In this document: positions 46,689 through 61,340 of the stretch, piece after piece
Layout: each line of letters opens with the position of its first letter
Numbering within the stretch: the first letter of the stretch is position 1
NCBI RefSeq assembly: GCF_000737575.1
Contig: NZ_CP006270.1
Span: 499,163 to 563,162, forward strand
Origin: Synechococcus sp. KORDI-49
GTDB lineage: Bacteria > Cyanobacteriota > Cyanobacteriia > PCC-6307 > Cyanobiaceae
Reading direction: 5' to 3'
DNA: 64,000 nt
Translations under genes and position numbers: made by a program
Notes under the pieces: model-generated
What the model saw: only the letters and a program-made list of their open reading frames with translations
What the model was told of the DNA's origin: nothing
Database searches by the model: none

Positions 46689-46722
46689 CCCATCAACGCA
46701 GGTTCAAAGATTCTGCACAGGA

Positions 46723-47271
46723 GTGGCGCGATGCGGAGAACGCAGATGCCGACAGAATGATTCCAACCATTCCGGACGCTTGACCCTGAGGCCGCTGCGC
46801 AACCTTGTGATCCATCTGCTGGCTTGCCTTGCGATCGTGGGTCTTGGGGCGGCAGACGTGTCTGCCTGTATCGAAGGTCTTGAGTGGGGCATGACGCTGG
46901 ATCAAGTCACAGCACACCTCGGCGAAATCCGTCAGGCAGGCCCCGATCAACCGCAGAAGTATCAGGCGCTGAACGCACGCCTCGATGAAATCCCAGTGGT
47001 CCAGTCAACGTTTGAACTGAGTCCCGGCACCGGCTTGAGGTCGTTGGCCTACGAGTTTGAGGTGAGCGATATGACCGAAGTGCTGGCAGGCCTTCGTCAT
47101 CGCTATGGGCAGCCGTTGAGCATGAGCATCGACGATCGCCAGGTCAACCAACAGTTGTGGGTCTGGAATACCGGTGACGATCTGATCACAGCCGTGAACA
47201 GCACCTCCATGGGACGCCATCAATTCCTCATCTCCTACCGACCCAGTCGACTTCGACCCAACAATCTCTGA
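46723..47271 (+). CDS. Secreted small protein, unknown
   Basis: The frame opens with a GTG at 46723 and codes for up to 182 residues. A TTG at 46780 would start just before an evident signal peptide (LRPLRNLVIHLLACLAIVGLG, cleavage near ADVSA), giving 163 residues. The mature part begins CIEGLEWGMTLDQVTAHLG, a pattern seen in small exported proteins that bind substrates by a helix-strand repeat, but I cannot name a family. A ribosome-binding site AGGAG lies just before an unrelated nine-residue ORF at 46731-46760, so leader-peptide control is a remote possibility. Confidence 0.6.
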   Translation: MARCGERRCRQNDSNHSGRLTLRPLRNLVIHLLACLAIVGLGAADVSACIEGLEWGMTLDQVTAHLGEIRQAGPDQPQKYQALNARLDEIPVVQSTFELSPGTGLRSLAYEFEVSDMTEVLAGLRHRYGQPLSMSIDDRQVNQQLWVWNTGDDLITAVNSTSMGRHQFLISYRPSRLRPNNL

Positions 47272-47399
47272 ATCCCTTTCACGCAAAAAACCGCGCGTTG
47301 CTAGACGACGACCCGCGAGTCCGTAGCCCGAACCTTGACCATGCGCCCGGTGACGCTCTGCGCATCGCGGTGGACAGGGGGCCATCCCAACCACCAGAA

Positions 47400-47414
47400 T
47401 GAGAACGATTCCCA
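47400..47414. promoter_or_regulatory. Candidate Zur box upstream of the CobW-like operon
   Basis: TGAGAACGATTCCCA matches the 7-1-7 pattern TGANAATNATTNTCA at ten of twelve defined positions and lies about 50 bases before the CobW-like start. It is less symmetric than the two palindromes at 56937 and 62275. Confidence 0.5.
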
Positions 47415-47462
47415 CTAGAGAAGGGCTGTCGTCCCCCCACCCGACGGCGGATGCTGGAGACC

Positions 47463-48242
47463 ATGAGCACAACCTGGTTGATCTCAGGTCCGCCGGGGTG
47501 CGGGAAAACCACCTGGATCCTCAACACACTGCGCGAGCATCCGGGTCCCTGCGGATACCTGCGTCTGAAGGGCACGAGCCAAGAAGGCCTCGAGCAGGGT
47601 TGTGATGCCGGCATCGACCGGACCTGGCTGCAGGACCAGATCCCATCGCTTGAGGACCTCTCGACTCCACAGCCCAGCCCCGCTGCGGCTGATCGGATCA
47701 ACCTGATTGAGCTGCAGCAATTCCAGGCCCCGCCGGAGGGAGCCCCCGAGGCCATCGACCCAGCCATCCGATCGCAACTGGACACCCTCCAGCTGAGACC
47801 GGACCGATGCCTCCATTTCGGCCGTGATCCGGAGTTACCCGGCCAGGACACGCTGGCGTTCAACAGGCTGGAGGCCTGGAGCCTCAGCCTCCACAACAGT
47901 GTCTGGGACCCCAACAGCCTCAGCAGCTTCTGGTTCGAGCTGGTGAATGGTGCCTATGGCGACGTCTACCGCGCCAAGGCATTGATGAATCTCCCCGACG
48001 GCCGTGCCTTCTTCTGCAACTGGATGGTGAGTCAACAGGGCTCGCAGTTTCTGCCCCTGGAGAGGGTGGAGCCACCCCATGGCCGACCCAAACGCTCGTC
48101 GGAGCTGGTGGTGCAGGGCAAAGCTCTCAATGGCATCGGCATCCAGACCACCATCGACGATTGCCTGATCAGTGATGACGTGCTGGAAATGCATCAGGCC
48201 CCGATGCGCGACCAGCAACCCGAGACCACCCTCACCCGATGA
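47463..48242 (+). CDS. CobW/COG0523-like P-loop protein, shortened
   Basis: The ATG at 47463 (GGAG ribosome-binding site just upstream) gives 259 residues: MSTTWLISGPPGCGKTTWIL with the Walker A loop at about 8-16. The C-terminal third (GAYGDVYRAKALMNLPDGRAFFCNW and SELVVQGKALNGIGIQTTIDDCL) resembles the CobW C-terminal domain. Between them the GTPase domain is about 100 residues short. The GCxxC-type metal motif and an NKxD guanine motif are missing. CobW-family proteins deliver zinc or cobalt to client enzymes, and several are zinc-starvation genes. This one may bind nucleotide without the full GTP cycle. It is coupled to the next gene by a 4-base overlap. Confidence 0.62.
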   Translation: MSTTWLISGPPGCGKTTWILNTLREHPGPCGYLRLKGTSQEGLEQGCDAGIDRTWLQDQIPSLEDLSTPQPSPAAADRINLIELQQFQAPPEGAPEAIDPAIRSQLDTLQLRPDRCLHFGRDPELPGQDTLAFNRLEAWSLSLHNSVWDPNSLSSFWFELVNGAYGDVYRAKALMNLPDGRAFFCNWMVSQQGSQFLPLERVEPPHGRPKRSSELVVQGKALNGIGIQTTIDDCLISDDVLEMHQAPMRDQQPETTLTR

Positions 48243-49063
48243 CGCCCATGGCCCACGCCGTGATCTCATGCCTCCACGCCAACCTGGCAGCCGTTGAGGC
48301 TGTGCTGGAGGACATCGATCGGCAGGGAATTGAAACGATCACCTGCCTTGGAGATCTGGTGGGTTACGGCCCCCAACCGAATGAAGTGGTGCAGCTCGTG
48401 AGGGAACGCGCCATCCCCACCTGCCAGGGCTGCTGGGATGAAGACATCATCGATGGCCTTAATGCCTGCGAATGCAGCTACCCCTCGCAACTGGCGGAAC
48501 GGCGAGGCCACCGGGCGCATCACTGGACCGCTGAACAGATGACGGACGAGAACAAAGCCTTCCTGGCCAGCCTTCCGATGACCCTGAGGCGCGACCGGCT
48601 GCTGTTCGTTCACGGCAGCCCGAACAGTCAGCACGAATATCTGCTGCCAGACATGAGTGCTTTTGCGGCGCTGGAGCGGGTCGAAACCGCCGGAGCGGAC
48701 ACGCTGTTCTGCGGCCATACCCACCAGCCCTATGTGCGCGAACTGAGTGGTGGATCGATCCGGGTGACCGTGGAACAGGCCGGCAGCGAGGGGGCCACGG
48801 AACAGGAACTGACCCTGCCGATGCGCCGCATCGTCAACGCGGGATCCGTGGGTGAGCCCCGCCATGGCGACACCAAGGCGACGTATGTGATCCACAACGA
48901 CACCAGTGGTGAGGTGACGATCCGTGAGGTGGAGTACGACGTGGCGAAAACCTGTCAGGCCATCGTCGATGCCGGCCTGCCTGAGGTGTTCGCCTGGCGG
49001 CTGAGCCATGGTTTCGAATATGCCGAGCGGGCCGACGACGCCAGCCACGTGTGTGAGCGCTGA
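48239..49063 (+). CDS. Metallophosphoesterase-family protein with Cys-substituted metal ligands
   Basis: 274 residues on the YfcE/DR1281-like fold. The usual metal-binding DxH is SCLHANLAAVEAVL (Asp replaced by Cys) and the GNHD box is QGCWDEDIIDGL (Asn to Cys, His to Trp). The other motifs, CLGDLVGYGPQPNEVV, LFVHGSPNS and CGHTHQPYV, are normal. The replacement by two cysteines suggests a changed metal or a binding rather than catalytic role. The ATG at 48239 overlaps the CobW-like stop; a second ATG is nine bases on. The next gene overlaps it by one base. Confidence 0.82.
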   Translation: MTPMAHAVISCLHANLAAVEAVLEDIDRQGIETITCLGDLVGYGPQPNEVVQLVRERAIPTCQGCWDEDIIDGLNACECSYPSQLAERRGHRAHHWTAEQMTDENKAFLASLPMTLRRDRLLFVHGSPNSQHEYLLPDMSAFAALERVETAGADTLFCGHTHQPYVRELSGGSIRVTVEQAGSEGATEQELTLPMRRIVNAGSVGEPRHGDTKATYVIHNDTSGEVTIREVEYDVAKTCQAIVDAGLPEVFAWRLSHGFEYAERADDASHVCER

Positions 49064-49767
49064 TGGAACGCTGGGCTCTGGTCAGTGGACTGCGCGGTGA
49101 TCTGGATCTCTATGAGCGGATTCAACGCGACCTCTCAACGCAACGGGGCGTCGAAAGTCTGTTCGTGCTGGGGGATCTGATCGGCCCTGAGCGCAACTGC
49201 GATGCCTTGCTGGAGCGATTGCGCCAGCCCAAACGCGGTGATCTCAAGCCCGACTGCATCTATGGATGGTGGGAGGAGCAGCTGCTGGCCGAACGGGGAT
49301 ACCGCGGTGATCAGAACGCACAGGTGCTGCGCCGGGAGCATGGCGACGATGCCGTCGACGCACTGCTCAAAGCTGTTGATGAACGCCATCTCCCGTGGCT
49401 TGCCTCCCTGCAGTTCGGCTTCATCGAACTGGATTGCGCCCTGATCCATGGCAGCTCCGCCGACATCGGCGATCGGCTGACAAGCGAAACGTCGCCTCTC
49501 ATCCTTCTGGATCGCCTCACCCGGCTGGATGTGAACCGCCTGTTCACCGCCCGCAGCGGTCAACAGTTCCGCCTGGAACTGACCGGTGGTGCCATTCAAT
49601 CGCATGTGAAAGACACAGCCGGCGAACAGCAGCAGGAACAGGCCGTTCCCAAACGCAGCGTGATCGGCATCGGCCAGGGAGCCGCCTTCTCGCTGTACGA
49701 CCCCGCCACGGATCGACTCGACTTCATGAGAGCTGGAGACCCCTGCGTGACCCCGCGCCGGACTTGA
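49063..49767 (+). CDS. Degenerate metallophosphoesterase-fold protein (likely non-catalytic)
   Basis: 234 residues aligned along the same fold as the preceding gene (MERWALVSGLRGDLDLYERI, LFVLGDLIGPERNCDALLERL, LIHGSSADIG). Only the GDLIG box and an HGS box remain; DxH has become GLR, GNHD has become GWWEE and the GHTH box is gone. It is therefore probably a partner subunit of the upstream protein that arose by duplication. It starts at the base where its neighbour ends, consistent with tight coupling and stoichiometric synthesis. Confidence 0.65.
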   Translation: MERWALVSGLRGDLDLYERIQRDLSTQRGVESLFVLGDLIGPERNCDALLERLRQPKRGDLKPDCIYGWWEEQLLAERGYRGDQNAQVLRREHGDDAVDALLKAVDERHLPWLASLQFGFIELDCALIHGSSADIGDRLTSETSPLILLDRLTRLDVNRLFTARSGQQFRLELTGGAIQSHVKDTAGEQQQEQAVPKRSVIGIGQGAAFSLYDPATDRLDFMRAGDPCVTPRRT

Positions 49768-49852
49768 TGCGCAGATGAAGATCCCCGAAGCCTTCAACCC
49801 CCAGGTGCCGGAACAGATCCGGCAGGATCGACACATAGATGTCCGCCGAACA

Positions 49853-50092
49853 ATGCGAGGGTCTGCCATCAACGCCGTTCTGACGGTGCCGACAGCTCTT
49901 TCACTTCTGTTCATCGCGCCGTTGCTGACCATCGGCCCGGCTCACGGCCACGGCAAAGGGATCTACGAAAGCCGGAGCGAGGCTAAGAAGCGCGCTGAAG
50001 AGATCGGCTGCTCCACGGTTCATCAGAACAACGGGAAGTGGATGCCCTGCGCGGATGAGCAGGAACTGCACCGGCAGTTGCGAAAGCACTAA
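49853..50092 (+). CDS. Small secreted DUF3721 protein
   Basis: The ATG at 49853 gives 79 residues: a signal peptide (MRGSAINAVLTVPTALSLLF, cleavage near AHG), then GHGKGIYESRSEAKKRAEEIGCSTVHQNNGKWMPCADEQELHRQ, the DUF3721 pattern. Two cysteines (GCS, PCAD) and several histidines stand in the mature part, suiting metal or disulfide binding. A longer start at 49775 is open. The stop overlaps the next gene. Members of this family are typical of marine picocyanobacteria; their role is unknown. Confidence 0.7.
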   Translation: MRGSAINAVLTVPTALSLLFIAPLLTIGPAHGHGKGIYESRSEAKKRAEEIGCSTVHQNNGKWMPCADEQELHRQLRKH

Positions 50093-50367
50093 TGGATCAC
50101 CGCAACACCTCCCGCCAGCGTCAGGCCCGCCGACTGCACCGGTGGGTCGTACCGATCGCCGCAGCTCCACTGCTGCTGACAGCGGCGACCGGTTCGCTCT
50201 ACAGCCTTCTGCTGGAGATGAACATCGATGCCTTCTGGTTGCTCAAGATTCACACCGGAAACTTCGGCCCCTTGAATCTGCAGCCGGTCTACCCGGTGCT
50301 GCTCGGTGCCCTCACCATCATCGTGACCGGATCAGGTCTGCTGATGCTGCTCAGGCCTGCACGCTGA
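50092..50367 (+). CDS. Small PepSY-associated-like membrane protein
   Basis: 91 residues from an ATG overlapping the preceding stop (TAATG). A basic N-terminus (RQRQARRLHRWVVPIAAAP) leads into two transmembrane helices, about 20-42 and 68-87, with SLLLEMNIDAFWLLKIHTGNFG between. The RxLHRW and LKxHTG arrangement recalls the helix pairs of PepSY-associated membrane proteins, often linked to iron or other metal uptake, but no periplasmic PepSY domain is present. Its 3' end overlaps the convergent gene by 17 bases. Confidence 0.55.
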   Translation: MDHRNTSRQRQARRLHRWVVPIAAAPLLLTAATGSLYSLLLEMNIDAFWLLKIHTGNFGPLNLQPVYPVLLGALTIIVTGSGLLMLLRPAR

Positions 50368-50665
50368 AATCCAGCACCAGATCCCCCACGTCATCCCGGC
50401 TGATCACAAAACCGAAGCCATCGACACGGCCTCTCCACTCACCGGCATCGCTGTCTCCCTCCAGTCCCGTCGACTCTTCCACGGTGTGTCCGAAGAGAAC
50501 GGCAAAACAATGGGCCGCCACCTGGGCCGCCTGATCGGCATCCATGTCGTCGAGTTCATGGGCCTCCAACGGACCACCCTCCAGCAGCTCGGAGTCGATC
50601 ACATTGCCTCTGCCGAGATCGGCCACCAGGGCCTGAAGCCCGTCTGGAGCCGTGATGTCACCCAT
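50351..50665 (-). CDS. Acidic protein, unknown
   Basis: 104 residues from the ATG at 50665 (MGDITAPDGLQALVADLGRG). The chain is acidic and shows helix-strand patterns such as ADQAAQVAAHCFAVLFGHTVEE and GRVDGFGFVISRDDVGDLVLDF. I do not recognise a family. It could be a small soluble enzyme partner. It lies between the PepSY-like gene (convergent) and rsmE, which ends 24 bases upstream on the same strand. Confidence 0.5.
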   Translation of the reverse strand: MGDITAPDGLQALVADLGRGNVIDSELLEGGPLEAHELDDMDADQAAQVAAHCFAVLFGHTVEESTGLEGDSDAGEWRGRVDGFGFVISRDDVGDLVLDFSVQA

Positions 50666-50689
50666 GGGTCGTCGTCGTCAACGCCTTCA

Positions 50690-51403
50690 TCATCCCCAAC
50701 CCAGGGCCAGCGCCGCCGTCAGAGCCGTGTCGACACTGAGTAAGCGCTCCCCGAGATGCACCGGCCGGGCGATCACCGCCTGGGCCAGATCCAGTTCAAA
50801 CGGCACGAAGCCTCCCTCGGGGCCGATCATCACCACCGCAGGCCCATCGGCCGCACTGCTCAGAGCCTGGGGCGATCCCATCTCGGCGATCAGGCAGGGA
50901 CGACCGGAGCAGATCTCCACCAAACGGTCCTCGACGAAGGGACGAAACAATCTGTGCTGGTGCACCCGGGGCGCGACGGTGTCGCAGGAGCGCTCCATCC
51001 CAGCCAGCAGAGCCTCCTCGACCTTGTCGCCTGCCAGCAGGGGGGACTGCCAGAAGCTTTTCTCCACCCGGGCACTGTTGATCAGATGCAGATCCGACAC
51101 CCCGAACTCCGCCACCGTGCGCAGAATCCGGCGCAGCATCTTCGGCCTTGGCAAGGCCAGAACGATCTCGAACCGATGGCGCCTCGGTGGTGGTTCGCGC
51201 GTCTGAACCGCAAGCTCGACCGTCGCAGCATCCATGGCCACCACCCGACCTGTGCCCAGAGCACCATCGCGGATGCCGACCCTGAGCGTGTCACCGAGGT
51301 TCGGTTTGAGGAGCTCAAGGATGTGAACCGCCCGCCGATCACGCAGCAGCACGGTGGTGTCATCCAGCCAGCAATCCTGGGGACCGAGGAGAATGACGTT
51401 CAC
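50690..51403 (-). CDS. rsmE: 16S rRNA (uracil(1498)-N(3))-methyltransferase
   Basis: SPOUT-fold methyltransferase that modifies U1498 in the decoding region. The 237-residue chain has an N-terminal PUA-like domain (HILELLKPNLGDTLRVGIRDG) and the knotted domain with LALPRPKMLRRILRTVAEFGV. MIGPEGGFVPFELDLAQA and LGERLLSVDTALTAALALG form the cofactor pocket. It runs on the minus strand between unknown genes. Confidence 0.93.
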   Translation of the reverse strand: MNVILLGPQDCWLDDTTVLLRDRRAVHILELLKPNLGDTLRVGIRDGALGTGRVVAMDAATVELAVQTREPPPRRHRFEIVLALPRPKMLRRILRTVAEFGVSDLHLINSARVEKSFWQSPLLAGDKVEEALLAGMERSCDTVAPRVHQHRLFRPFVEDRLVEICSGRPCLIAEMGSPQALSSAADGPAVVMIGPEGGFVPFELDLAQAVIARPVHLGERLLSVDTALTAALALGWG

Positions 51404-51433
51404 CGCCTCAGCACCCGGCGCAGCGACGACCGC

Positions 51434-51778
51434 TCAGCAGTGCTCGAAGATTCCGACCTGAGACGGCGGCACTCCACCGGCGACTCTGTTGGCGCAATAG
51501 GCCGCATCCGCCTCCTGCATGGCCTCCCGATCCTCCTGGAACCAGCAGCCGTACATCAGATTCAGGATGCGATCCACATCGAGCTCCCGCTCAGCCACGT
51601 CCTGCCACAACCGACGACTGAGTTCCTCATCCGCCAGCTGGAACTGAGCACGAGCCAGGTTGCGTGCAGAGGAGAAATAGAGATCCTGCTCGTGATCCCT
51701 GGTGCTCTGATAGCGCAGGAGTGTGGTCTGGATGGCCTGGAGAAATGCCACGGGCAGCGTTGCCTGTTTGTTCAGCAT
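51434..51778 (-). CDS. Small helical protein, unknown
   Basis: 114 residues from the ATG at 51778 (MLNKQATLPVAFLQAIQTTLLRYQ). The sequence is strongly helix-forming and acidic, with ARNLARAQFQLADEELSRRLWQDVAE and a Cys-containing tail (ADAAYCANRVAGG and EHC at the end). I do not recognise a family. It is placed 75 bases after the last HupE-like gene of the DUF3604 operon, so it could be the operon's final member. Confidence 0.5.
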   Translation of the reverse strand: MLNKQATLPVAFLQAIQTTLLRYQSTRDHEQDLYFSSARNLARAQFQLADEELSRRLWQDVAERELDVDRILNLMYGCWFQEDREAMQEADAAYCANRVAGGVPPSQVGIFEHC

Positions 51779-51852: not shown

Positions 51853-52398
51853 TCACCCCCTGAACTGCAGGCCCAACGTGAGCAATCCCGCGGCAGCGAT
51901 CCAGCTGCCGACCACCCGCAGAGAGATGCGGACCCACTCGCGGTGGCTGACGGAGGTCTGCGCACTCACCAGGGCGGCGAGCACCGAAAGAGCACTGACA
52001 ACCCCGAGCAGATCAAGAGACAGTGGCCCCTCAAGGGCCATGGTGCTGCCATTGCCGAGGCCGAACAGCAGACCGCTGAGGGCGGACAGAACAGCAAGCC
52101 ATCGCGGCTGCATACGCCACTGCAGTGCCACCAGACATCCGATCGCCGTGAACCAGAGGATGCTGATCGTTTCGAGGGAATCCCCAAGGGCCAGCACCTG
52201 TCCCAGGCATCCTCCGAGCCACCAGCTCAGGGGCAGCACCAGCAGCAGCATGCGCCCCCCAGCCTGCCCCTGCTGACCTGACAGCAGCGACAGGCCCAGC
52301 ACCAGCAGCAGATCCGCCGGCGTGATCAACAGATGGGCGATGCCGTCATAGAACCCGCCGAAACCGGTTTCCATCAGGTGGGCGAACAAGGGCGACAT
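51853..52398 (-). CDS. HupE/UreJ-like membrane protein (third of operon)
   Basis: 181 residues with about six hydrophobic helices. The FGGFYDGIAHLLITPADLLLVLGLSLLSG opening resembles the HupE/UreJ metal-binding signature, with Asp18, His22 and Asp29 arranged around the first helices, though it lacks the full HPxxGxDH string. The rest is hydrophobic and Leu-rich. HupE/UreJ proteins are associated with uptake of nickel or cobalt, and here perhaps zinc. It follows the HupE gene by three bases and is co-transcribed. Confidence 0.65.
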   Translation of the reverse strand: MSPLFAHLMETGFGGFYDGIAHLLITPADLLLVLGLSLLSGQQGQAGGRMLLLVLPLSWWLGGCLGQVLALGDSLETISILWFTAIGCLVALQWRMQPRWLAVLSALSGLLFGLGNGSTMALEGPLSLDLLGVVSALSVLAALVSAQTSVSHREWVRISLRVVGSWIAAAGLLTLGLQFRG

Positions 52399-52401
52399 CG
52401 G

Positions 52402-52989
52402 TCAGATCTGAAGCAGAAACCAGACACCACTGATGGTGATCGCAGCGCCGATCAGCTGCACCAGTCGGCGGCCCACAGGCCATCGACGCAGCTCACCCAG
52501 CAGGATGCCCACCAGATGCAGCAGCCCTGTGGCGGCGACAAACGCCAGGCTGAACAACAGAGCATTGGCTCCATCCGGCAGTTCACGGCCGTGCGCATAA
52601 CCGTGGAACAAAGCGAACACCCCCACGAGGGCCAGCGCCACGCCAAGGGGAACACGCCGTTCCAGCGCCACCAGCAGCCCCAGCACCATGCCCGAGATCG
52701 CGATTCCAACTTCCACGCCGGGCAGAGGCAGTCCCAGCAATCCGATCAGACCACCGAGCGCCATCACCATCGGGAAAGCCACCGGCAGCAGCCAGATTGC
52801 CGGAGCGGCCAGCACCGCTCCCCAAAGGCCGACAGCAACCATCGCCACGACGTGATCGAGTCCGGTGACGGGATGCAGCAAGCCTGAGAGCAGGCTGCCG
52901 GCACCACCACTCTCCACATGCGCGCGGGCGGCGGGAGCGAGCGTGATCATCAAACCCAGCAGCAGGGCCATACGGCGGGTCATCGTCAA
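52402..52989 (-). CDS. HupE/UreJ family metal permease
   Basis: 195 residues, with a signal-like start (MTMTRRMALLLGLMITLAPAARAH) and six membrane helices. HPVTGLDHVVAMVAVGLWGA (His39, Asp45, His46) is the family metal site and FALFHGYAHG (His129, His133) the second. The family imports nickel or cobalt in relation to hydrogenase and urease. In this operon next to a DUF3604 protein and under a Zur-type palindrome, zinc is also plausible. The ATG overlaps the preceding HupE_2-like gene by four bases. Confidence 0.85.
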   Translation of the reverse strand: MTMTRRMALLLGLMITLAPAARAHVESGGAGSLLSGLLHPVTGLDHVVAMVAVGLWGAVLAAPAIWLLPVAFPMVMALGGLIGLLGLPLPGVEVGIAISGMVLGLLVALERRVPLGVALALVGVFALFHGYAHGRELPDGANALLFSLAFVAATGLLHLVGILLGELRRWPVGRRLVQLIGAAITISGVWFLLQI

Positions 52990-53999
52990 CCTCCTGGCAG
53001 AAACAACGCGGTGGTGTGCTCAAGGGTCCAGAAGGCCCCGGCAACCCCCACCGCATAACCGGGAAGGCGCACTGCCCACTGGGGCCAGTGAATCTCGAGT
53101 TGTCGAAAGGAGCGCTTCAGAGCAAGCACCAGAAACACGAAGACGTCCTGGCCGATCTCGATGCCGATGTTGAACAGCAGCAGCGCCAGCAGCAGCTCGC
53201 CGCGGGGCAAGCCCAGATCAGCGAGACCGCTTGCGTAGCCGAAGCCGTGGATCAGACCGAACCCGAACGCCACCACCCAGGGACGACGGATGGTGAAGCT
53301 GCTTTGCCCCCGCCAGGTGCGGACCACCTCAACACCCATGAACAGAATCGACAGGGCGATGGCCGCATTGAGAGGCGGCGCCGGGACACGCATCACCCCG
53401 ATCGCCGCCACCGACAACGTGACGCTGTTGGCGACCGTGAAGGCCGTGATTGTTTTGAACAACGTCCAGCCATCCCTGACGATCAGCAGCAACGCCAGCA
53501 CGAAGAGCAGGTGATCCACACCGAGCAGGATGTGCTCGATACCCAGGCGCAGATAGGTGATGGCACTGGTCTGTTGCGCATCGCTGCTGATCGCTCCGAT
53601 CAGCGCCTCCCCCTTCTCCGGTTGGATGAGGATGGTTTCCGGCCCTGATGAATCCAGGGACGTCACGCGCAGCAGCACCTCCGTGCCGACAGCGCGCAAT
53701 CCGTCAATGCTCACGAGCCGTCCCTGGAGAGACGTCTCACAGGAGAGTTGCGCTGTGTACACCAGGGCGCGACGCTCCAGCCGTGCATCCAGACTGCCCT
53801 CGGTGGCGCAATCGTCAGGGAATCGAGGAGCCAGAGGCAACCTTGCACCGCGCTGCAGGGGCAGTTTCCAGATCACGTCATACACCTGGGGAGCTGTTTC
53901 CTCGAGTTCGAGGTAGCCGGGCATCAACTCATGACCCAACACCACGCCGGGCCAGAGGAAGCCGAAGCAAAGCAGCAGGGGCCAGATTCGACGGATCAC
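52986..53999 (-). CDS. HupE/UreJ_2 family membrane protein with periplasmic N-domain
   Basis: 337 residues. A signal peptide is followed by HELMPGYLELEETAPQVYDVIWKLP and a soluble, probably periplasmic, beta-sandwich domain to about residue 145. The membrane part carries LRLGIEHILLGVDHLLFVLALLL (His156, Asp162, His163) and FGFGLIHGFGYASGLADLGLP (His251), the family metal sites. In the FTxAHS box the usual His is Asn191 (FTVANS). The ATG overlaps the parvulin stop by four bases. It is the biggest HupE-type protein of the operon. Confidence 0.85.
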   Translation of the reverse strand: MIRRIWPLLLCFGFLWPGVVLGHELMPGYLELEETAPQVYDVIWKLPLQRGARLPLAPRFPDDCATEGSLDARLERRALVYTAQLSCETSLQGRLVSIDGLRAVGTEVLLRVTSLDSSGPETILIQPEKGEALIGAISSDAQQTSAITYLRLGIEHILLGVDHLLFVLALLLIVRDGWTLFKTITAFTVANSVTLSVAAIGVMRVPAPPLNAAIALSILFMGVEVVRTWRGQSSFTIRRPWVVAFGFGLIHGFGYASGLADLGLPRGELLLALLLFNIGIEIGQDVFVFLVLALKRSFRQLEIHWPQWAVRLPGYAVGVAGAFWTLEHTTALFLPGG

Positions 54000-54853
54000 G
54001 GAGTCAACTCCGGTCGACGCACGCTGTAGCCGTTCAACAAGCGCTCATAGGCATCATCCTGGTATCGGCGAAGCTTGTCTTGAAACCAGTCGCGAGTGAC
54101 CTCTGCGCGGATGTCATCGAGCTCGGGAATCGCCCCCTTTGCAACAGACTCCACCCGAACCAGATGGCGACCGTAAGCCGATTCGATCGGCCCGGTCCAT
54201 CGCCCCTGGGCCTGACTGAGCAGTGCATCCGTGAAGGTGGAGCCGAACAACGCGACGAGATCCTTGCGTGAGAGGTCGGTCCAGTTATCGGCGAGATCGA
54301 TGGGGTCACCGAGGCCGTTGAGCTCCATCTCCTGGTCTTGATTGTTCAACAGCAGAAGCGCGGCCTGCGCATCGTCCGCAAGGGAATCACCGCGTTGTTG
54401 CGGATCAAAGAAGACATGGCGGAACGACACCACTGCATCGGTGCGGTATTGCTTGGAATTGGCGGTGAAGTAGGCCTCAAGCTCAGACTCTGCCGGCGCC
54501 TTGTTGGGGAACTGACTCTCATTCAGGAACTCCATCTTCTGTCGAAGACGCCTCCGGATGATTGTGTCGTTCTGATCAAGCCCGAGCTTCATCGCTTCGC
54601 GCACATAGACCTCGGTGCGGACTTCGTCATCGATCAGGGCCTGAAGCTCCTCCTTGGAGGGAGCACGCTGCCACGTGAGAGCGAATTGACTGACCATGCC
54701 CGACGCCTGATCGTCGGTGATCACAATCTCAGCAGCGATTGGTTGCTGAGATGGTCTCAACGCGGCATTGACGACAAACAGACTCGCTCCAATCAGTAGA
54801 AATTGAACAACAGGCTCCCGAAGCAAGGATCGCCATTGTTGAAACTTAGCCAT
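53996..54853 (-). CDS. Membrane-anchored parvulin-type peptidyl-prolyl isomerase (PpiC/SurA-like)
   Basis: The ATG at 54853 (MAKFQQWRSLLREPVVQFLL) gives 285 residues: one N-terminal transmembrane anchor, a SurA-N-like helical region (ALIDDEVRTEVYVREAMKLGL, about 60-110), then a PPIase-like region (FRHVFFDPQQRG and GPIESAYGRHLVRVES). The GPIESxxGxHLVRV segment is a parvulin hallmark. It would assist folding of an exported protein, perhaps the DUF3604 lipoprotein or the HupE_2 domain. The frame can also start at a GTG at 54877, which would add eight residues. The next gene overlaps by four bases. Confidence 0.82.
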   Translation of the reverse strand: MAKFQQWRSLLREPVVQFLLIGASLFVVNAALRPSQQPIAAEIVITDDQASGMVSQFALTWQRAPSKEELQALIDDEVRTEVYVREAMKLGLDQNDTIIRRRLRQKMEFLNESQFPNKAPAESELEAYFTANSKQYRTDAVVSFRHVFFDPQQRGDSLADDAQAALLLLNNQDQEMELNGLGDPIDLADNWTDLSRKDLVALFGSTFTDALLSQAQGRWTGPIESAYGRHLVRVESVAKGAIPELDDIRAEVTRDWFQDKLRRYQDDAYERLLNGYSVRRPELTP

Positions 54854-54900
54854 AGAAATATTCAGGGCGGAGATCACTCCCCGCCCACATCTACAAGCGA

Positions 54901-56820
54901 TCAGGACGGGTTATACCAGACAGGACTGGAGAAGGCTCTTTCCTGATGGCTGTAGGGCAGATCCTGAGGCATTTCTGCATAGTTATCGAATCTCTTCCGA
55001 TCAAAGGCCAACCAGGTTGGAGTGGGAATTTCCAACACCCTCACGTAGTAGAAAGCTCTCTGGCTGGGATCAAAGTCGGGGTCGGTCCAGGAGCCGCTCA
55101 GTGACGCTGCCCCGATGTTGTTTTTGAAGGTGGCTTCTTTCTCGTCCACCGTGTTTCCGACGGACGGGATGGAGCCATCGTCGGCCTGAACTCTCTTGTC
55201 TGGGTCCGACCAGGTGACGTTGTAGATCTTTTCATCCGTGGTTCCGTCGGCCTTCAGCCAACCCTTGACCATCTGAATACGGTCAAGATTGGCTCCATCG
55301 GGATCTCTAAGCGCCTTGATCTGGAACGTTGGAGCCTTGCCTTCCGGTGCCTGACTCAGATCCCCACCCATCGGGACCCCCTTCAAACAGGCCGCTTTTG
55401 ACCAGTTTTTAGCAGCAAGCTCACTGCCATCGAAATCGAAGCCTCCATACATCTGCACGGAAAGCAGCGTTCCAGTTGTGCCGAATACCTCCTTACGCTC
55501 CATGGCATCAAACAAACCTTCTCGGGTGTTTTCCGATGCCCAAACACCAGCGAGGCCCGAAGAGCCAATCTGGTAGTTGTACATATCGAAGGCCTTGTCC
55601 GTTGCGGATTGCAAGAGGAACTTTTTCCAGCGGTCCTTGGAAGGTTCTGAAGTGAACGCTTTTCCGAAGAAAGCGTCTTCATCGGTGGTGACCAGGGAGG
55701 TGTGGCTGTCCGTGGCACCGATCACACCGAACTTGAACGGGTTGACACCCTCAAGCTGATCCTGCAACTCAAGGCCCCTGCGCAGGCCAGGACGGACGTA
55801 CTCATACCGCATCATCTCTTTTGTAGGAGCCTTGAATGCGCCGAGATTGGAGTTGTCCAACAACCAGAAATCGGCAAATTCATCATTGGGCGACAGCAGG
55901 GGATGGGCTTCGCTGTGGCCTTTGATCTGAGTGATTTCAAAGAGGGGCTCCCGCTTCTGCCTGCGGCGTGCGTAATCAGCATCGATCGGCTGATTGGTCT
56001 CCTGGTGACGCGGCAGGAACATCGTTCCGCTGGACAGGTTGCCGTTATGCGGAATGGCGATGGCACGTCCTCCGGTCTTGTTTTCATAGCCATCCATGAA
56101 GGTCCACAGATCCTCAACATCCTCCGAGTCGTAAGCCGAGAACGGAGTGATCTGTTCAGCACGATCCTTGCCATCACGGAGGATCACAACCCGGTGCAGG
56201 TTTCCACCGCCAGGCTGACTTGTCCATTCGAAGCCGACCAGTGCTGTGAAGACCCCTGGCTTGTTGTTGGCCTCAGCACTGTCGAGATTGGCCCCCCACT
56301 CACTCGCAGAGAACTCCTTGGGGAGCTTCTTGGAGGTTCCAAGGGCTACACCCCGGATGAACTCAGAAGCGGCCTCAACACCCTTCCCTTCTTTAACGAG
56401 ATCATGAAGCCTCTTCCCGAAATCGTCATTGATCAAGCCCTCGTCGGAACGTTCAATGGCCTGCTGAAGGCCAATACTCTCGGCGTGATCAGCAACAACG
56501 ATGAAATCATGCGGGCGTCGCAATTGAACTTCTTCGCCGATACTTGAGGTGACCTTCTTTCCTTGAGCGAATTCATACGCCACATCACGATCGAGTTTAT
56601 TACCAAACATTCCGGCGTCTGGTGACGCACTGGTGTGGAGGTGTGTGTCGCCGAAATAAGGACGATCTCCCGCCAGGCATTCAGGGGACTGGTCTGCACT
56701 GACAACCTCAGCGCCATCCACCTTGCTGGTGTCGGAAGTGGATGTATCCACACTCGAGCAGGAGGCCAGCAGAGGCTGCAGAGCAAGAGCAGACGCTGCG
56801 ACCAGCAGATGTACGCGCAC
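54901..56820 (-). CDS. DUF3604 lipoprotein
   Basis: The GTG at 56820 with a GAGG ribosome-binding site gives 639 residues: signal peptide VRVHLLVAASALALQPLL, a lipobox LASC, then a Ser/Thr/Asp-rich linker. The DUF3604 domain begins near residue 45 with GDRPYFGDTHLHTSASPDAG, where DTHLHTS is a PHP-like metal motif. EVQLRRPHDFIVVADHAESIG and GVIGATDSHTSLV supply other putative ligands. The upstream frame to 56964 runs through the palindrome and is not coding. DUF3604 is uncharacterised; its PHP-like motifs suggest a metal-dependent phosphoesterase outside the cytoplasm. It is first in the operon leading to the parvulin and HupE genes. Confidence 0.82.
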   Translation of the reverse strand: MRVHLLVAASALALQPLLASCSSVDTSTSDTSKVDGAEVVSADQSPECLAGDRPYFGDTHLHTSASPDAGMFGNKLDRDVAYEFAQGKKVTSSIGEEVQLRRPHDFIVVADHAESIGLQQAIERSDEGLINDDFGKRLHDLVKEGKGVEAASEFIRGVALGTSKKLPKEFSASEWGANLDSAEANNKPGVFTALVGFEWTSQPGGGNLHRVVILRDGKDRAEQITPFSAYDSEDVEDLWTFMDGYENKTGGRAIAIPHNGNLSSGTMFLPRHQETNQPIDADYARRRQKREPLFEITQIKGHSEAHPLLSPNDEFADFWLLDNSNLGAFKAPTKEMMRYEYVRPGLRRGLELQDQLEGVNPFKFGVIGATDSHTSLVTTDEDAFFGKAFTSEPSKDRWKKFLLQSATDKAFDMYNYQIGSSGLAGVWASENTREGLFDAMERKEVFGTTGTLLSVQMYGGFDFDGSELAAKNWSKAACLKGVPMGGDLSQAPEGKAPTFQIKALRDPDGANLDRIQMVKGWLKADGTTDEKIYNVTWSDPDKRVQADDGSIPSVGNTVDEKEATFKNNIGAASLSGSWTDPDFDPSQRAFYYVRVLEIPTPTWLAFDRKRFDNYAEMPQDLPYSHQERAFSSPVWYNPS

Positions 56821-57220
56821 AGGAACCTCTGTGTCATAAACATCCGTCTTGTAGCAGTTAACACTGACTGGGACCGGCGAACTGGGATGCAAAGGCAGCA
56901 AAAACATCCACAAACGCTTTAATTGGACCAAAATAGCGAGAATGATAATCATTCTTGCAGTCATGGTTCATCGTTTGTGCCTAGCTGCCAACTCTTTGAA
57001 CTATCACTCAGGATGGAAAGGAGATCACCATCTCCAAGGCAGGACAACATCTGCATCGAGCTCATTCCTCCCAGCCCGGATGACATCTGCCGAATCAAGA
57101 TGATTTCCTGGGGAGTGCGATCAACCGTGCCTTCATCACCATCAACGTGCAATGCCACACACCCGGTGTTGCAATTCCCCATGGAGCTGAGAAGATCACC
57201 ACTGTTTCAACGGGCATGGC
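56821..57220. other. Divergent promoter region between DUF3604 and UPF0718 operons
   Basis: 400 bases without a firm gene. The half near 56870-56965 is AT-rich and contains the Fur/Zur palindrome. The part from 56965 to 57220 would be a long leader for the permease; short frames there (for example one reading INRAFITINVQCHTPGVAIPHG at 57113-57177) look like coding sequence but have no start, so they may be a remnant. No terminator or RNA gene recognised. Confidence 0.5.
56937..56957. promoter_or_regulatory. Fur/Zur-type palindrome in divergent promoter
   Basis: AGAATGATAATCATTCT at 56939-56955 is a perfect 8-1-8 palindrome, with nine of ten pairs matching when extended to 56937-56957. It contains the ATGATAATCAT core of Fur-family boxes. 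It is 118-137 bases upstream of the DUF3604 start and about 265 bases upstream of the permease start. Confidence 0.7.
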
Positions 57221-58177
57221 GTGGAACGGTTGGCCACCGCCTGGGCAATCTTTCAGGGTTTGCTGCTGGAAGCGATTCCGTTTCTGCTGCTTGGGGTGCT
57301 GATCGCCGGTCTGGCGCGCTGGCTGGTGCCTCAGAGCGCCTGGGTCAGCCGCTTGCCCAGCAACCCGTTGCTGGCTCCGATCACCGGCGCACTGATGGGA
57401 TTCGCCCTGCCGGCCTGTGAATGCGGCAACGTTCCGGTGGCTCGCCGCCTGCTCGCCAGTGGTGCACCCCTGGGAACCGGCTTCGGCTTCCTGTTCGCTG
57501 CACCGGTGCTGAATCCGATTGTTCTGGCCAGCACCTGGGCTGCCTTTCCCGATCAACCCTGGCTGCTGATCGCCAGACCTGCCGGGGCGTTTCTGCTGGC
57601 GATCCTGCTGAGCCTGCTGCTGGCACAACTCCCCGAGTCGCAGCTGCTGGAAACGGCGTTGTTAAGCGAACGACGTCTCAGTCAGCCGCTGCGCAACCTG
57701 GACCTGTTGCAGCGGGGCAGCGGCCTGATCGGTACGCCGCTGCCAGCCAACGCGGCACCGAGAGCGCAGCGTCCGTCGCCGCGGGACGTGCTGGATCAGA
57801 GCAGTCGGGAGTTCCTGGATCTGCTCGCCCTGCTGGTGCTGGGATGCGTCATCGCCGCCGCCGTGCAGACCTGGTTGCCCCGCAGCTGGTTGCTGGAGAT
57901 CGGTGGCGCCCCGACGGCCTCGATCCTGGCCCTGATGGTGCTGGCGGTGGTGGTGTCGGTGTGCTCAAGCGTGGATGCCTTTCTCGCCCTCGGTTTCGCC
58001 GCCCAGGTGACCCCGGGTGCGCTGCTGGCCTTCCTGCTGTTGGGACCGGTGGTTGACCTCAAACTGGCTGGACTGTTCACGGTGCTGATGCGGCCCCGCG
58101 CCATCGCGATCACGGCCGTCGCTGCCAGCCTTGGGGTGTTGCTGATCGGTCAGTGGGTCAACCTGTGGCAGCTGTGA
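57221..58177 (+). CDS. UPF0718/DUF318 family permease
   Basis: 318 residues from the GTG at 57221 (VERLATAWAIFQGLLLEAIPFLLLG), with about eight membrane helices in two groups around a cytoplasmic linker (roughly 150-190). The GFALPACECGNVPVARRLLASGAPLG segment carries the paired cysteines of the family and LNPIVLASTWAAF follows; VSVCSSVDAFLALGF is the second half's equivalent. Relatives export arsenic compounds (ArsP) or, when paired with DUF1980 proteins, appear in zinc-regulated loci. The next gene, a DUF1980 type, starts 13 bases downstream. Confidence 0.85.
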   Translation: MERLATAWAIFQGLLLEAIPFLLLGVLIAGLARWLVPQSAWVSRLPSNPLLAPITGALMGFALPACECGNVPVARRLLASGAPLGTGFGFLFAAPVLNPIVLASTWAAFPDQPWLLIARPAGAFLLAILLSLLLAQLPESQLLETALLSERRLSQPLRNLDLLQRGSGLIGTPLPANAAPRAQRPSPRDVLDQSSREFLDLLALLVLGCVIAAAVQTWLPRSWLLEIGGAPTASILALMVLAVVVSVCSSVDAFLALGFAAQVTPGALLAFLLLGPVVDLKLAGLFTVLMRPRAIAITAVAASLGVLLIGQWVNLWQL

Positions 58178-58190
58178 TCCGGAGGTTGAG

Positions 58191-58844
58191 ATGACACGCG
58201 GCCTGCTGTTGATCCTGTGGGGGTGGATGGTGCTGTGGAGCGTGCTCAGCGGCCGCCTGGATCTGCTCCTGCGCGGCATTTTTCATTCCCTGGTCGGTGC
58301 TTCCGGACTGGCCTTGCTTCTCGCCGGCGTGATGGTGATGATCCGCAACCGCCGTCAGCGGGACGTACACCGCTGGCCCTGGCTGGTGAGCGCTGTCGTC
58401 GCTGGGCTGGTGCTGCTGATGCCGCCGAACCCATCCTTCAGTGATCTCGCGAACAACCGTCCCCAGGGGCTGCCTGAACCACCGGAGCTGGCCTTCGTGC
58501 TGCCACCGGAACAGCGCAGCCTCACCGAATGGGTGCGCCTGCTGCGCAGCCAGCCCGATCCCGATCTTGTCGCCGGCAATCCGCTGAACATCAGCGGTTT
58601 CGTCTGGAGTCAACCCGACGGTCCACCGTTGATCGCCAGGCTCACCGTGCGCTGCTGCCTGGCCGACGCGACCCCTTCAGGTCTGCCGGTGGCCTGGCCA
58701 GCCGACGCCGAACCGAAAGCCAACCAGTGGTTGGCGATCCAGGGGACCATGGCGGTGGAAACCCGCCATGGCGAACGCATTGCCGTAGTGGTGCCGACAA
58801 CCATCACAACCATCCCCCGCCCCAAGCGGCCATTGGAGCCTTGA
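58191..58844 (+). CDS. TIGR03943/DUF1980 family protein
   Basis: 217 residues. The N-terminus has two or three membrane helices (about 4-50 and 62-78). The soluble part has NPLNISGFVWS and the family box LTVRCCLADATPSGLPV with Cys155, Cys156 and Asp159, suited to metal binding. This is the usual partner of UPF0718 permeases, and together they are a predicted metal permease. The stop overlaps the TTG of the next gene by four bases. Confidence 0.82.
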   Translation: MTRGLLLILWGWMVLWSVLSGRLDLLLRGIFHSLVGASGLALLLAGVMVMIRNRRQRDVHRWPWLVSAVVAGLVLLMPPNPSFSDLANNRPQGLPEPPELAFVLPPEQRSLTEWVRLLRSQPDPDLVAGNPLNISGFVWSQPDGPPLIARLTVRCCLADATPSGLPVAWPADAEPKANQWLAIQGTMAVETRHGERIAVVVPTTITTIPRPKRPLEP

Positions 58845-60160
58845 CCGGTCGTCTCCCATTTCTGTTGGTACTCGCGGCCGCACTGGTGCTGATTCAGCAG
58901 CAGGTGCTGCTGCGTCGATCACCACGGTTGGTGACCCTGAGCCAACAGCAGATTCATTCAGGCAGCGCGGCCCTCGATCTGCGCTTCAGCCGGCCGATGC
59001 ACCGCAACAACGTCAGCTCCGAAAGCCGGCTGGTCCCCGCCCTGAACCACCGCTGGCTCGGAACCAACAACCCTCTGCGATTGGTGATCGACGCCGACCA
59101 GGTGATTGCTGGCCCGCTGAAGCTCGAGCTGGCTGGACGCGACCAGCGTCTGAATCCGATGGCGACCCAGACCTGGTGGTGGGAACCCCGTCCGTGGTTG
59201 CTGGTGACGCGGCAGGTGGACGACGGGGAGCAGCTTCAGCTTCTGGATCATGACGGGAGCTGGAAACCACTCAGCCCGGTGTGGAAGCGCATCACCAAGC
59301 TGACGCCGATCGGAAACGGACAGGGCGTCGCCATGGTGAGCAGCGATGGCGAAGGCGGGGAGCGAATCTGGCTGCGACATCTCACCCAGCAGAGCCTGGC
59401 CCGACGGCGCGAGGAGTTGAAACCACCTGAGCCTGAGCAACTTGAGTTGCTGGCGGAGAAAGAAGTGCTCTTCGGTCATCTGAGCAGCAACCTCAATGGC
59501 GATCTGCTGCTGCAGACCGGTGGATTCTTCCCTGGCAGTGAACGGGTCGAGCTGATCAAAGCCGATGGGAAGCGGCAGAAGCTGAGTCAGATCTCCTCGG
59601 GTCCGATGGAGCTGATTCCAGCCGGAGGCGGTCTCGTTGTGCCCTCGTATGACAACCTCAGCCTTCGCCCTCTGGTCGACAACGGCCGTCCTCCGCAATC
59701 CCTCCCCGGCAGTCGCGAACTGGGAGCCTTCTGTGCCGCCTCCGGACGGGCCGTGCTCATCCGCCACTGGCCCGATTACCGCCGCTCGATCGAGCTCGTG
59801 ATTCCAGGCCTCGCTCCGCGGCAGCTGTGGTTAGGGGAGAAGGCGGTGCTGGGGGTTGCCTGCGACGGCAGCGGCGAACGCATCTGGGCGGTGCTGGGGG
59901 AGTGGACTGGTGATCGCGGGGTTCACACAATCCTGCTGATCGATGGAGCAGGAACACAACTGAAACAGCAGCCGCTGGAACCGTGGTCGATGAAAGGAGG
60001 CACTCCGGTGCAGTTCGATCCCGTCAGCCGGCAGCTGCTGCTGACGGTGTTGCAACCAGACCGACGCGAGACCCATCCCGCCCTGATGGATGCCGACACC
60101 CTTCAGTGGCGGAAGATCCTGCCGGTCGATGTGGGGGAAGCCCAGTGGCTGTCCCCCTGA
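58841..60160 (+). CDS. Exported or membrane-anchored protein of unknown family, coupled to the permease pair
   Basis: The TTG at 58841 overlaps the DUF1980 stop and gives 439 residues. A hydrophobic N-terminal segment (LPFLLVLAAALVLIQQQ) would insert or be cleaved. Residues about 50-110 (ALDLRFSRPMHRNN, ELAGRDQRLNP) resemble an Ig-like bacterial adhesion fold, and the rest has repeated strand patterns with WEPRPWLLVTRQV and GERIWAVLGEW, reminiscent of a beta-propeller. I recognise no family. Its tight coupling with the metal permease pair suggests a periplasmic partner of that pair. Confidence 0.6.
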   Translation: MTGRLPFLLVLAAALVLIQQQVLLRRSPRLVTLSQQQIHSGSAALDLRFSRPMHRNNVSSESRLVPALNHRWLGTNNPLRLVIDADQVIAGPLKLELAGRDQRLNPMATQTWWWEPRPWLLVTRQVDDGEQLQLLDHDGSWKPLSPVWKRITKLTPIGNGQGVAMVSSDGEGGERIWLRHLTQQSLARRREELKPPEPEQLELLAEKEVLFGHLSSNLNGDLLLQTGGFFPGSERVELIKADGKRQKLSQISSGPMELIPAGGGLVVPSYDNLSLRPLVDNGRPPQSLPGSRELGAFCAASGRAVLIRHWPDYRRSIELVIPGLAPRQLWLGEKAVLGVACDGSGERIWAVLGEWTGDRGVHTILLIDGAGTQLKQQPLEPWSMKGGTPVQFDPVSRQLLLTVLQPDRRETHPALMDADTLQWRKILPVDVGEAQWLSP

Positions 60161-60166
60161 CACGGA

Positions 60167-61291
60167 TCAGAAGGTGAAACTCATGCCGGTGCCGATGTGG
60201 TGCTGCCAGCCTTCACCCCAACCGGGAGCATCCGTGCCGCTATAGGTCGGCTGCCAGTGAGCGAACAGATTGGCATCGCCAACAGGCACTAAAAGCTCGA
60301 TTTCACCGGCGAAGTCGGTGCGCTGATCGAGTCCTGAGTAACTGCCGGGGGTGTAGAAGCGAGGCCCAGCTTCGATCGAGACATTGATCTGATCCGACCC
60401 GATCGTGAAGCCGACGCCGACGCGCGGATCGGTGTAATTACCGATCCAGACGCCATCAGATTCCCATCCCTGTCGGTGCTCAACAGACAGGAACACTCCA
60501 TTGACGAGATCTTCCAGTCCGTCACCCAGGCCGAAGTTCACATCTCCGTCACCCAGAGCCCAGAGCACTTTGGCTCCGATCTCGTTCTTCAGGCCCTGCA
60601 CATCGTCTCCCTGATCCTCAGTGACGAAATAGGGCTTCCAATCAACGGAGAAACTCAGGCGATCGTTCGGGGCATAACGGACCTGCAGGTAGCCGCGTAC
60701 GTCCGCTCGCTGGAAGTCGGTGTCTCCATGCCCGTGGTCATGGCCTTCATGGGCATGTTCCCCGTGGTCATGGTCGTCATGGTCATCGTCGTGATCGGCA
60801 TGGTCGTCATGCTCCTCACCTTCATGCTCGTCATGCTCCTCACCCTCATGCTCGTCATGCTCCTCACCCTCATGCTCGTCATGCTCCTCACCCTCATGCT
60901 CGTCATGCTCTTCACCCTCATGCTCGTCATGGTCGTCATGCTCCTCGTGGTCGTCATGGTAGGCATGGACCTTGCCGTAGAAATGCTCGGCCTCTCCCCA
61001 GACGAGCGTCGGTCCCACAGCGGCCTCAATGGACAGACTGCCGCCATTGCCAAGGCCCCACTCGAAGACGCCTCCGAACAGAGCATCGACGGCGTAGTGC
61101 TTGGGGCTGTCCTCCAGGTTGGTATCGAAGCCACCGTGAGCTTCGACCGTGATCAGCGGTGTGAAATCGAATTCACCGGCTTCGAGAGCGTCCTCACCGC
61201 CTCCGCCATGGGACCCGTGGGCCAGAGCCGAAGGAGCAGGAAACAGAGGGAGCAGCAGCAGGGCCAGCAGCAGGGAACGGGAGCGGAACAT
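60167..61291 (-). CDS. Outer-membrane-like beta-barrel protein with His/Asp/Glu-rich repeat loop
   Basis: 374 residues. A signal peptide (MFRSRSLLLALLLLPLFPAPSALA) precedes GSHGGGGEDALEAGEFDFTPLITVEAHGGFDTN, alternating strands typical of a barrel, and the chain ends in HHIGTGMSFTF, an aromatic-ended last strand like outer-membrane proteins. Residues 109-190 are acidic and His-rich, with five tandem HDEHEGEE units (121-160) and HDDHDHGEHAHEGHDHGHGD after them. Such stretches bind zinc or nickel reversibly. It lies 49 bases after znuA on the same strand, so it should be Zur-controlled with it. It may capture zinc at the surface or in the periplasm. Confidence 0.72.
   Translation of the reverse strand: MFRSRSLLLALLLLPLFPAPSALAHGSHGGGGEDALEAGEFDFTPLITVEAHGGFDTNLEDSPKHYAVDALFGGVFEWGLGNGGSLSIEAAVGPTLVWGEAEHFYGKVHAYHDDHEEHDDHDEHEGEEHDEHEGEEHDEHEGEEHDEHEGEEHDEHEGEEHDDHADHDDDHDDHDHGEHAHEGHDHGHGDTDFQRADVRGYLQVRYAPNDRLSFSVDWKPYFVTEDQGDDVQGLKNEIGAKVLWALGDGDVNFGLGDGLEDLVNGVFLSVEHRQGWESDGVWIGNYTDPRVGVGFTIGSDQINVSIEAGPRFYTPGSYSGLDQRTDFAGEIELLVPVGDANLFAHWQPTYSGTDAPGWGEGWQHHIGTGMSFTF
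60812..60931. repeat. 24-base tandem repeat (five copies) coding for HDEHEGEE
   Basis: Five in-phase copies of a 24-base unit inside the His-rich protein. Changes in copy number would alter the number of metal-binding histidines and keep the frame. Confidence 0.9.
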
Positions 61292-61340
61292 GAGACGTTG
61301 GGTGGAGGAGAACAGACGAGGACGGGTGGATATCGATCAA

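Follow-up and report, generated by a model that had tools for sequence, protein, structure and literature searches.

Why should a cyanobacterium carry three HupE-type permease genes in one operon beside its znu genes, and which metal would they handle? The question is raised by a locus of Synechococcus sp. KORDI-49, found in a stretch of 64,000 nucleotides (contig NZ_CP006270.1, positions 499,163 to 563,162; hereafter the window, with positions counted from its first letter). Five minus-strand genes at 51853-56820 form an operon transcribed in the order DUF3604, parvulin, HupE1, HupE2, HupE3, and a Zur-type palindrome precedes the first of them. On balance, we favour reading this operon as a gained, Zur-repressed, ATP-independent metal-acquisition set. 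Its parts are as follows.

54901-56820, minus strand: DUF3604 lipoprotein, 639 amino acids from the GTG at 56820 (PF12228, E 3.1e-219)
53996-54877, minus strand: membrane-anchored parvulin of the SurA/PrsA type (Rotamase_2, E 5.1e-13)
52986-53999, minus strand: HupE1, a HupE_UreJ_2 permease with an outer domain (PF13795, E 3.2e-44)
52402-52989, minus strand: HupE2, a canonical HupE_UreJ permease (PF04955, E 1e-54)
51853-52398, minus strand: HupE3, a divergent HupE_UreJ protein (PF04955, E 1.8e-11)

A preliminary description of the locus had proposed five tightly packed genes, and the coordinates, gaps and domain calls are borne out by the Pfam matches and the spacing. A gap of 23 bases separates the DUF3604 and parvulin genes (47 when counted from the first ATG of the parvulin), followed by two overlaps of 4 bases each and a gap of 3. 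The DUF3604 frame stays open as far upstream as an ATG at 56964, but an AGAGG lies five bases before the GTG at 56820, which leads into a lipobox signal, LLASC (by eye). G+C content is 55% in the DUF3604 gene, 57% in the parvulin gene and 62-65% in the HupE genes, with 63% in the window.

The link to zinc comes from two palindromes.

56939-56955, no strand assigned: predicted Zur box of the operon, AGAATGATAATCATTCT (core 12/12, full consensus 14/16 specified bases)
62277-62293, no strand assigned: Zur box between znuA and znuC (full consensus 15/16), 5.3 kb from the operon box

The cyanobacterial Zur box follows the consensus NTNANAATGATNATCATTNTNAN, and in Synechococcus WH8102 the Zur protein (SynZur) controls the znu cluster and binds the promoter orthologous to the znuA/znuC box (PMC9337993; papers are cited here for passages of their text). 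The whole genome (2,585,813 bases) was scanned with a 14-base inner pattern, the consensus minus its two outer specified bases. Two sites fit with no more than one mismatch, the operon box and the znuA/znuC box, and both have 0 mismatches; with at most two mismatches there were 5 sites, and the reversed pattern gave 0. Shuffles of the window give an expectation of 0.01 sites at up to one mismatch, versus 2 found. The palindrome pointed out earlier before the first gene is confirmed as Zur-type, as it carries the complete core of the consensus, which occurs elsewhere in the genome only in the znu box. Three FUR-family genes are present in the genome, one of which (L222) has LDHCPIHG as in SynZur (compared by eye). 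Another member of the genus, G377, has a near-identical box, AGAATGATTATCATTCT, before a gene matching ZnuA at 29% identity. The inner pattern is matched perfectly at position 1501 of the G377 stretch L190, with a gene for a ZnuA-like binding protein on one side and a GTPase gene, COG0523-like by eye, on the other. A Fur (iron) reading of the operon box was tried and rejected: the window has no 0-mismatch AATGAGAATCATT site and its 1-mismatch matches are the two Zur boxes only, in a test that is weak in that the Fur form was taken from sites in the genome scan and not from a publication. Control of the operon by Zur, as predicted from the box, is in our judgement highly probable.

Several points weigh against this. 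Scored against the full set of 16 specified bases, the operon box departs from the consensus at 2 and the znu box at 1; the operon box is tied at 2 with a site at genome positions 821696-821716, whose mismatches sit in the core. The full consensus with at most 3 mismatches finds 8 sites genome-wide, and its reversed form finds 2. The box is separated from the GTG at 56820 by 118 bases, and a scan for sigma-70-like promoters of the operon found none. Elsewhere, a Zur box (at most 2 mismatches, in the fetched upstream stretch) precedes 0 of 9 other operons of the same taxonomic family, these being 9 of the 10 other genomes with HupE1 (G556 was left out). Zur, Fur and NikR forms gave nothing convincing in 194 upstream stretches, which is a weak test as such motifs vary among phyla; the best sites were in L065 (1/12 mismatch to a gammaproteobacterial Zur form) and L049 (2/12 to a NikR form). 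On these upstream scans the idea that every operon of this kind serves zinc was rejected, with the same weakness of the test. Gene partners were surveyed in 82 rows (78 loci plus four other loci, with L023 and L048 on one contig), which were collected by their similarity to HupE1 and cannot count as independent. The 82 flanks were searched for ZnuA and ZnuB, not for zur or cobW, and neither protein was found. The idea of a metal-uptake set put forward in the preliminary description thus stands in part: the Zur-type box, the architecture of HupE1 and the lack of a urease or hydrogenase link (see below) speak for it, but the co-occurrence with zur or znu genes across bacteria, which it proposed as a check, did not appear.

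The operon lies beside a conserved znu cluster, which includes the following genes.

57221-58177, plus strand: ArsP_1-type permease, first gene of the cluster and outside the insert (PF03773, E 3.1e-59)
61341-62363, minus strand: ZnuA (PF01297, E 1.1e-42)
62177-63058, plus strand: znuC, metal ATP-binding cassette (ABC) family
63051-63824, plus strand: znuB, metal ABC permease family

The ArsP_1-type permease is found in 30/34 genomes of the genus and in 19/19 near-complete ones, and HupE1 is missing from 33/34 and from 18/19, respectively. In all eight genus genomes compared at this place, the ArsP-to-ZnuB cluster is present and the operon is missing (L171 had no TIGR03943 call), and a comparable palindrome before ArsP is seen in 0/8 genus relatives that lack the operon. 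The closest genomes by ArsP protein, G338 and G370 (92 and 94% identity), have neither operon nor box. Their RsmE-ArsP distance is 772 bp versus 5,817 bp in the window, a difference near the length of the operon. Since relatives in the genus have the znu cluster without the operon and without the box, a block of about 5 kb would most simply have been inserted beside the cluster. In L167, L169, L170 and L171 the RsmE-ArsP gap holds an open reading frame of 1,200-1,300 amino acids, 5-oxoprolinase-like by eye. As a different large frame occupies the same gap in these other members of the genus, the gap is insertion-prone.

Across the taxonomic family HupE1 occurs in 11/400 genomes, 7 of the 11 from one other genus (g5, that of WH7803). 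In G225 (genus g5) and G141 the operon adjoins pgk (identified by eye); at the pgk place the window genome has a second, solitary DUF3604 gene (L011:8309-10360) without the other four operon genes. Phylogenetic trees of 28 HupE1 rows and 29 DUF3604 rows disagree on the nearest relative. The window HupE1 falls in a picocyanobacterial clade (7 rows, 100/99), with G303 as its weakly supported nearest relative (89/76), and the window DUF3604 sits on a long branch (0.68) next to the WH7803 type and to the second copy in its own genome (99/98). As judged from sequence, the operon is one gained by, or moved within, the window lineage. Around the G303 operon (L022, 976-12005), several DUF3604 frames and a DUF1254/DUF1214 protein are seen. 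A check for phage carriage in IMG/VR gave 9 stretches that match a pattern, 2 of which encode a relative. The WH8102 Zur regulon (synw0968-0973; PMC9337993) has the same znu genes and the same box type, but the five operon genes are an addition in the window genome.

Other genes of the neighbourhood may also touch on metals. Within the znu cluster of the genus, the ArsP_1 permease is paired with a TIGR03943 protein (57221-58844, plus strand). At 60167-61291 (minus strand) lies the gene of a histidine-rich secreted protein with no Pfam family over cut-off, which adjoins znuA in 8/8 of the genus genomes compared; by position its product would correspond to the uncharacterised, Zur-repressed synw0972 of WH8102. 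On the other side, about 3.6 kb from the operon end, 47451-48242 (plus strand) is a metal-chaperone-like gene for a P-loop protein (by eye) whose CobW_C match, at 21.3 bits, is just under the 22-bit cut-off; a calcineurin-like phosphoesterase gene follows it at 48239.

The evidence for metal capture centres on HupE1. Its AlphaFold2 model (mean predicted local distance difference test score, pLDDT, 90.6) shows a signal helix, a beta-sandwich at about residues 28-133 and then membrane helices. The metal-site residues H156, D162, H163, H251, N277 and E281 are present in 43/43 rows, and His23, at the start of the outer domain, in 42/43, with Ala before it in 38/43 (cleavage site read by eye). Vibrio cholerae ZrgA accounts for each of the eight best Foldseek chains for the outer domain (E 3.3e-3 to 3.9e-2, probability 1.00). 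VIA-align gives Z 9.7 over 103 residues with ZrgA, 9.2 with PA4063, and 7.7 with the copper-bound Ang-1 domain 9GCE (root mean square deviation, rmsd, 3.0 over 101 residues), where unrelated rows start from 7.4. Thus, the match to ZrgA and PA4063, both of them zinc-binding proteins (PMC9820375), stands out, and that to 9GCE would not by itself. Anglerases are HupE/UreJ-2 permeases with an N-terminal-histidine capture domain that have been proposed as metal capture-and-uptake proteins, and the best DALI match of one of them, RbAng-1a, is ZrgA too (PMC12537917).

Like the Ang-1 and Ang-2 anglerases, HupE1 has a signal peptide, an N-terminal histidine, an extracytoplasmic beta-sandwich and a C-terminal PF13795 permease. 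It differs from Ang-1 in that its outer domain has about 115 rather than about 175 residues before the membrane part and gives no sequence match, and the parvulin, DUF3604, HupE2, HupE3 and Zur box of the operon go unmentioned in the anglerase section (PMC12537917). ZrgA and PA4063 have the closest fold, but ZrgA is a separate protein of an ABC transporter with a histidine-rich loop and a conserved disulfide, whereas the HupE1 domain is fused to a HupE permease (PMC9820375). Two cysteines of HupE1, invariant in 5 close rows, recall the ZrgA disulfide. To be set against the comparison, each of them is present in just 24/43 wider rows, and sequence searches of the PDB showed no kinship of HupE1 to RbAng-1a (9GCE) or ZrgA. 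A Pfam search with the outer domain to E 10 found no family. As sequence searches found no relative, the link of HupE1 to ZrgA and Ang-1 is drawn from folds alone, within the families listed by the fold search; similarity of fold does not by itself show kinship. Taken together, the model and the alignment support for HupE1 the architecture of the anglerase metal-capture permeases. A DUF4331-like protein (by eye) at L098:6297-8495 lies near a short HupE_UreJ_2 protein without an outer domain.

For HupE2 and HupE3 we looked at two motifs, H-P-x-x-G-x-D-H and H-G-x-x-H-G-x-E, which we take to mark HupE/UreJ proteins and which can also be read from the alignment. HupE2 carries both, with H39, P40, G43, D45, H46, H129, G130, H133, G134 and E136 in 29/29 rows, and has His24 directly after an AxA site in 28/29. 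HupE3 is without the motifs (by eye), yet D18, H22 and D29 are kept in 30/30 rows. The earlier reading that two of the three HupE proteins have clear metal sites therefore holds, for HupE1 (43/43) and HupE2 (29/29). Two further, solitary PF04955 genes are found in the genome, at 76573 and 2442979, and both follow cobalamin riboswitches that score above the gathering score (58.4 and 37.3 bits).

L014:6343-6504 and L015:6759-6906: cobalamin riboswitches of the solitary hupE genes

A cobalt role of hupE has been reported in marine cyanobacteria, with which the riboswitches agree (PMC4284471). Because the solitary genes stand behind cobalamin riboswitches, the operon copies are wired apart from them, and one genome is predicted to have two HupE signals, B12 for the solitary genes and Zur for the operon. 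HupE2, as a canonical PF04955 protein with the metal-site residues, resembles the HupE/UreJ nickel and cobalt permeases (PMC2667541, PMC4284471), from which the operon differs in having a predicted Zur box and not a cobalamin riboswitch or a hydrogenase or urease context. No urease or hydrogenase family was found among the 15 neighbouring proteins scanned (45507-51778 and 57221-63824), nor, in Pfam tallies of 107 and 105 neighbour proteins, among the 25 commonest of 102 and 130 families; the tallies took in 212 of 310 selected neighbours, so single cases could escape. Service of the HupE proteins to urease or hydrogenase was tried as an explanation and rejected, as no such motif occurs in the flanks of the 82 rows (a crude motif test). 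The neighbour scans and the flanks agree with the preliminary description that no urease or hydrogenase genes stand beside the HupE genes.

Zinc is the most likely metal, at about even odds; nickel, cobalt or copper in its place is possible, though less likely. The best-surviving alternative is a zinc-sparing swap, in which the operon would import nickel, cobalt or copper so that zinc enzymes run on another metal. HupE proteins are reported as nickel or cobalt permeases (PMC2667541, PMC4284471), the one Ang-1 domain tested, that of RbAng-1a, binds copper with a dissociation constant of 74 nM and nickel with one of 220 nM and is slightly destabilised by zinc (PMC12537917), and a Zur box tells when and not which metal; all of this speaks for a swap. 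However, the modelled outer domain of HupE1 is nearer to the zinc-binding ZrgA and PA4063 (Z 8.7-9.7) than to Ang-1 (Z 7.7), and the solitary HupE genes already answer to cobalamin. Weighing both sides, we consider a swap doubtful. As nothing found outside this genome ties the operon to zinc, and RbAng-1a prefers other metals, the simplest proposal is that the divalent metal differs by host and that the window lineage put the machine under a zinc switch.

Of the 82 rows of the survey, 81 have HupE1, 69 the parvulin, 45 DUF3604, 29 HupE2 and 30 HupE3. The genes around the operons vary (the top family accounts for 3/107 and 4/105 scanned neighbours). In two of the 12 rows with HupE1 and no parvulin, HupE1 lies at a contig end; in the other 10 the match to the query begins no earlier than residue 108. 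Since these 10 lack most of the outer domain, outer domain and parvulin go together. In 7/69 rows the parvulin is on the strand opposite to HupE1. The window parvulin has one N-terminal hydrophobic segment and its profile matches SurA at 1.6e-10. At the positions which we take to be the active site, the candidate histidines in the window are H154 and H238; across 37 rows the first site carries H 15 times, Q 21 times and E once, and the second carries H 36 times. As the first site is often Q, a role as a chaperone without isomerase activity is possible.

The DUF3604 model (pLDDT 88.9) has a PHP fold with a C-terminal beta-sandwich. It aligns over 207 residues with the PHP protein 2ANU (Z 17.7, rmsd 3.2) and over 235 with another, 3E38 (Z 16.9). 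The candidate ligands H60, H62, D105, D111, H112, E198, H209, H258, D371 and H373 are present in 36/36 rows, and PDB sequence searches found no relative. DUF3604 is thus a putative PHP-fold metallohydrolase. Residues ~52-450 share the fold of the PHP metallophosphoesterases 2ANU and 3E38, but DUF3604 is a secreted lipoprotein with an added C-terminal beta-sandwich, at 16% identity.

This raises the alternative that the operon encodes an extracytoplasmic enzyme set, with a phosphoesterase-like DUF3604 as the main product for zinc starvation and the parvulin and HupE proteins maturing or metallating it. DUF3604 is indeed the first gene, with the PHP fold and ligands just described, and all three of 244 cyanobacterial genomes in which it scores above cut-off (G000, G141 and G225) have HupE1. 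However, 36/81 HupE1 rows are without DUF3604 in the flank (some flanks end at contig ends), the window genome keeps its second DUF3604 without the other four genes, and a HupE importer would draw metal away from a periplasmic enzyme; we regard an enzyme set as improbable. That the operon is unrelated to zinc, having landed in an insertion-prone gap with a box that is incidental or serves the divergent ArsP gene, agrees with the other family members without znu neighbours and Zur boxes, with the different large frame in the gap of L167, L169, L170 and L171 and with the shared rank of the box under the full consensus, but is the least probable of these explanations given the rarity of the inner pattern (0.01 expected per window), a core that the genome otherwise keeps only in the znu box, and the 0/8 operon-free relatives with such a palindrome before ArsP.

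As a Zur-repressed metal-acquisition set, the operon may work as follows. In zinc starvation Zur would leave the box at 56939-56955, and the operon would be transcribed along with znuABC. The N-terminal histidine domain of HupE1 would capture a periplasmic metal ion and pass it to the HupE-type membrane channel of the same protein, with HupE2 and HupE3 as possible companion subunits or parallel channels. The parvulin would fold or assemble extracytoplasmic parts, above all the outer domain of HupE1, a foldase role proposed because the parvulin accompanies that domain nearly always. DUF3604, as a PHP-type metallohydrolase, probably acts outside the cytoplasm, on a ligand that bears phosphate or carboxylate. 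The roles given to DUF3604 and the parvulin in the operon are guesses. In the preliminary description, DUF3604 could strip metal or phosphate from a carrier and the parvulin could fold it; what the models and profiles show is a PHP fold with candidate metal ligands and a SurA/PrsA-like protein. In its most far-reaching form, which we consider unlikely, the proposal is of a zinc importer of several parts that works without ATP and differs from ZnuABC and ZIP, with a histidine-capture HupE channel, two HupE subunits, a dedicated membrane foldase needed by the capture domain and an extracytoplasmic PHP hydrolase freeing metal from organic ligands, the whole block being under Zur beside znuABC. 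Overall, the locus combines known parts in a new way, as a permease operon of the anglerase type that is predicted to have been captured by Zur.

A literature search that reached few subscription papers found no paper on the five-gene operon, and one paper came up for DUF3604. Searches for HupE UreJ with zinc or zur, or with peptidyl-prolyl, found none, although the slashed form of the name may escape such a search. PMC10957091 has 0 matches for HupE, isomerase, PpiC or DUF3604, and the main text of PMC12537917 has 0 for 'isomerase' and 'PPIase' (peptidyl-prolyl isomerase). The name anglerase dates from 2025 and was based on metal binding in vitro, on structures and on gene neighbourhoods; the anglerase section of that paper gives no regulator that tells which metal is served in the living cell (Franco Cairo et al. 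2025, PMC12537917). An anglerase-type copy under a predicted Zur box provides regulatory evidence of this kind, with a shortage of zinc as the predicted trigger. Two partners that go unmentioned in the anglerase section of PMC12537917 also emerge from the survey: a membrane parvulin, present next to nearly all full-length copies, and DUF3604, an uncharacterised family that can now be tested for a part in metal nutrition. Where zinc is very scarce, as it is in the open ocean, additional zinc equipment carried by particular strains would influence which Synechococcus thrive in which waters.

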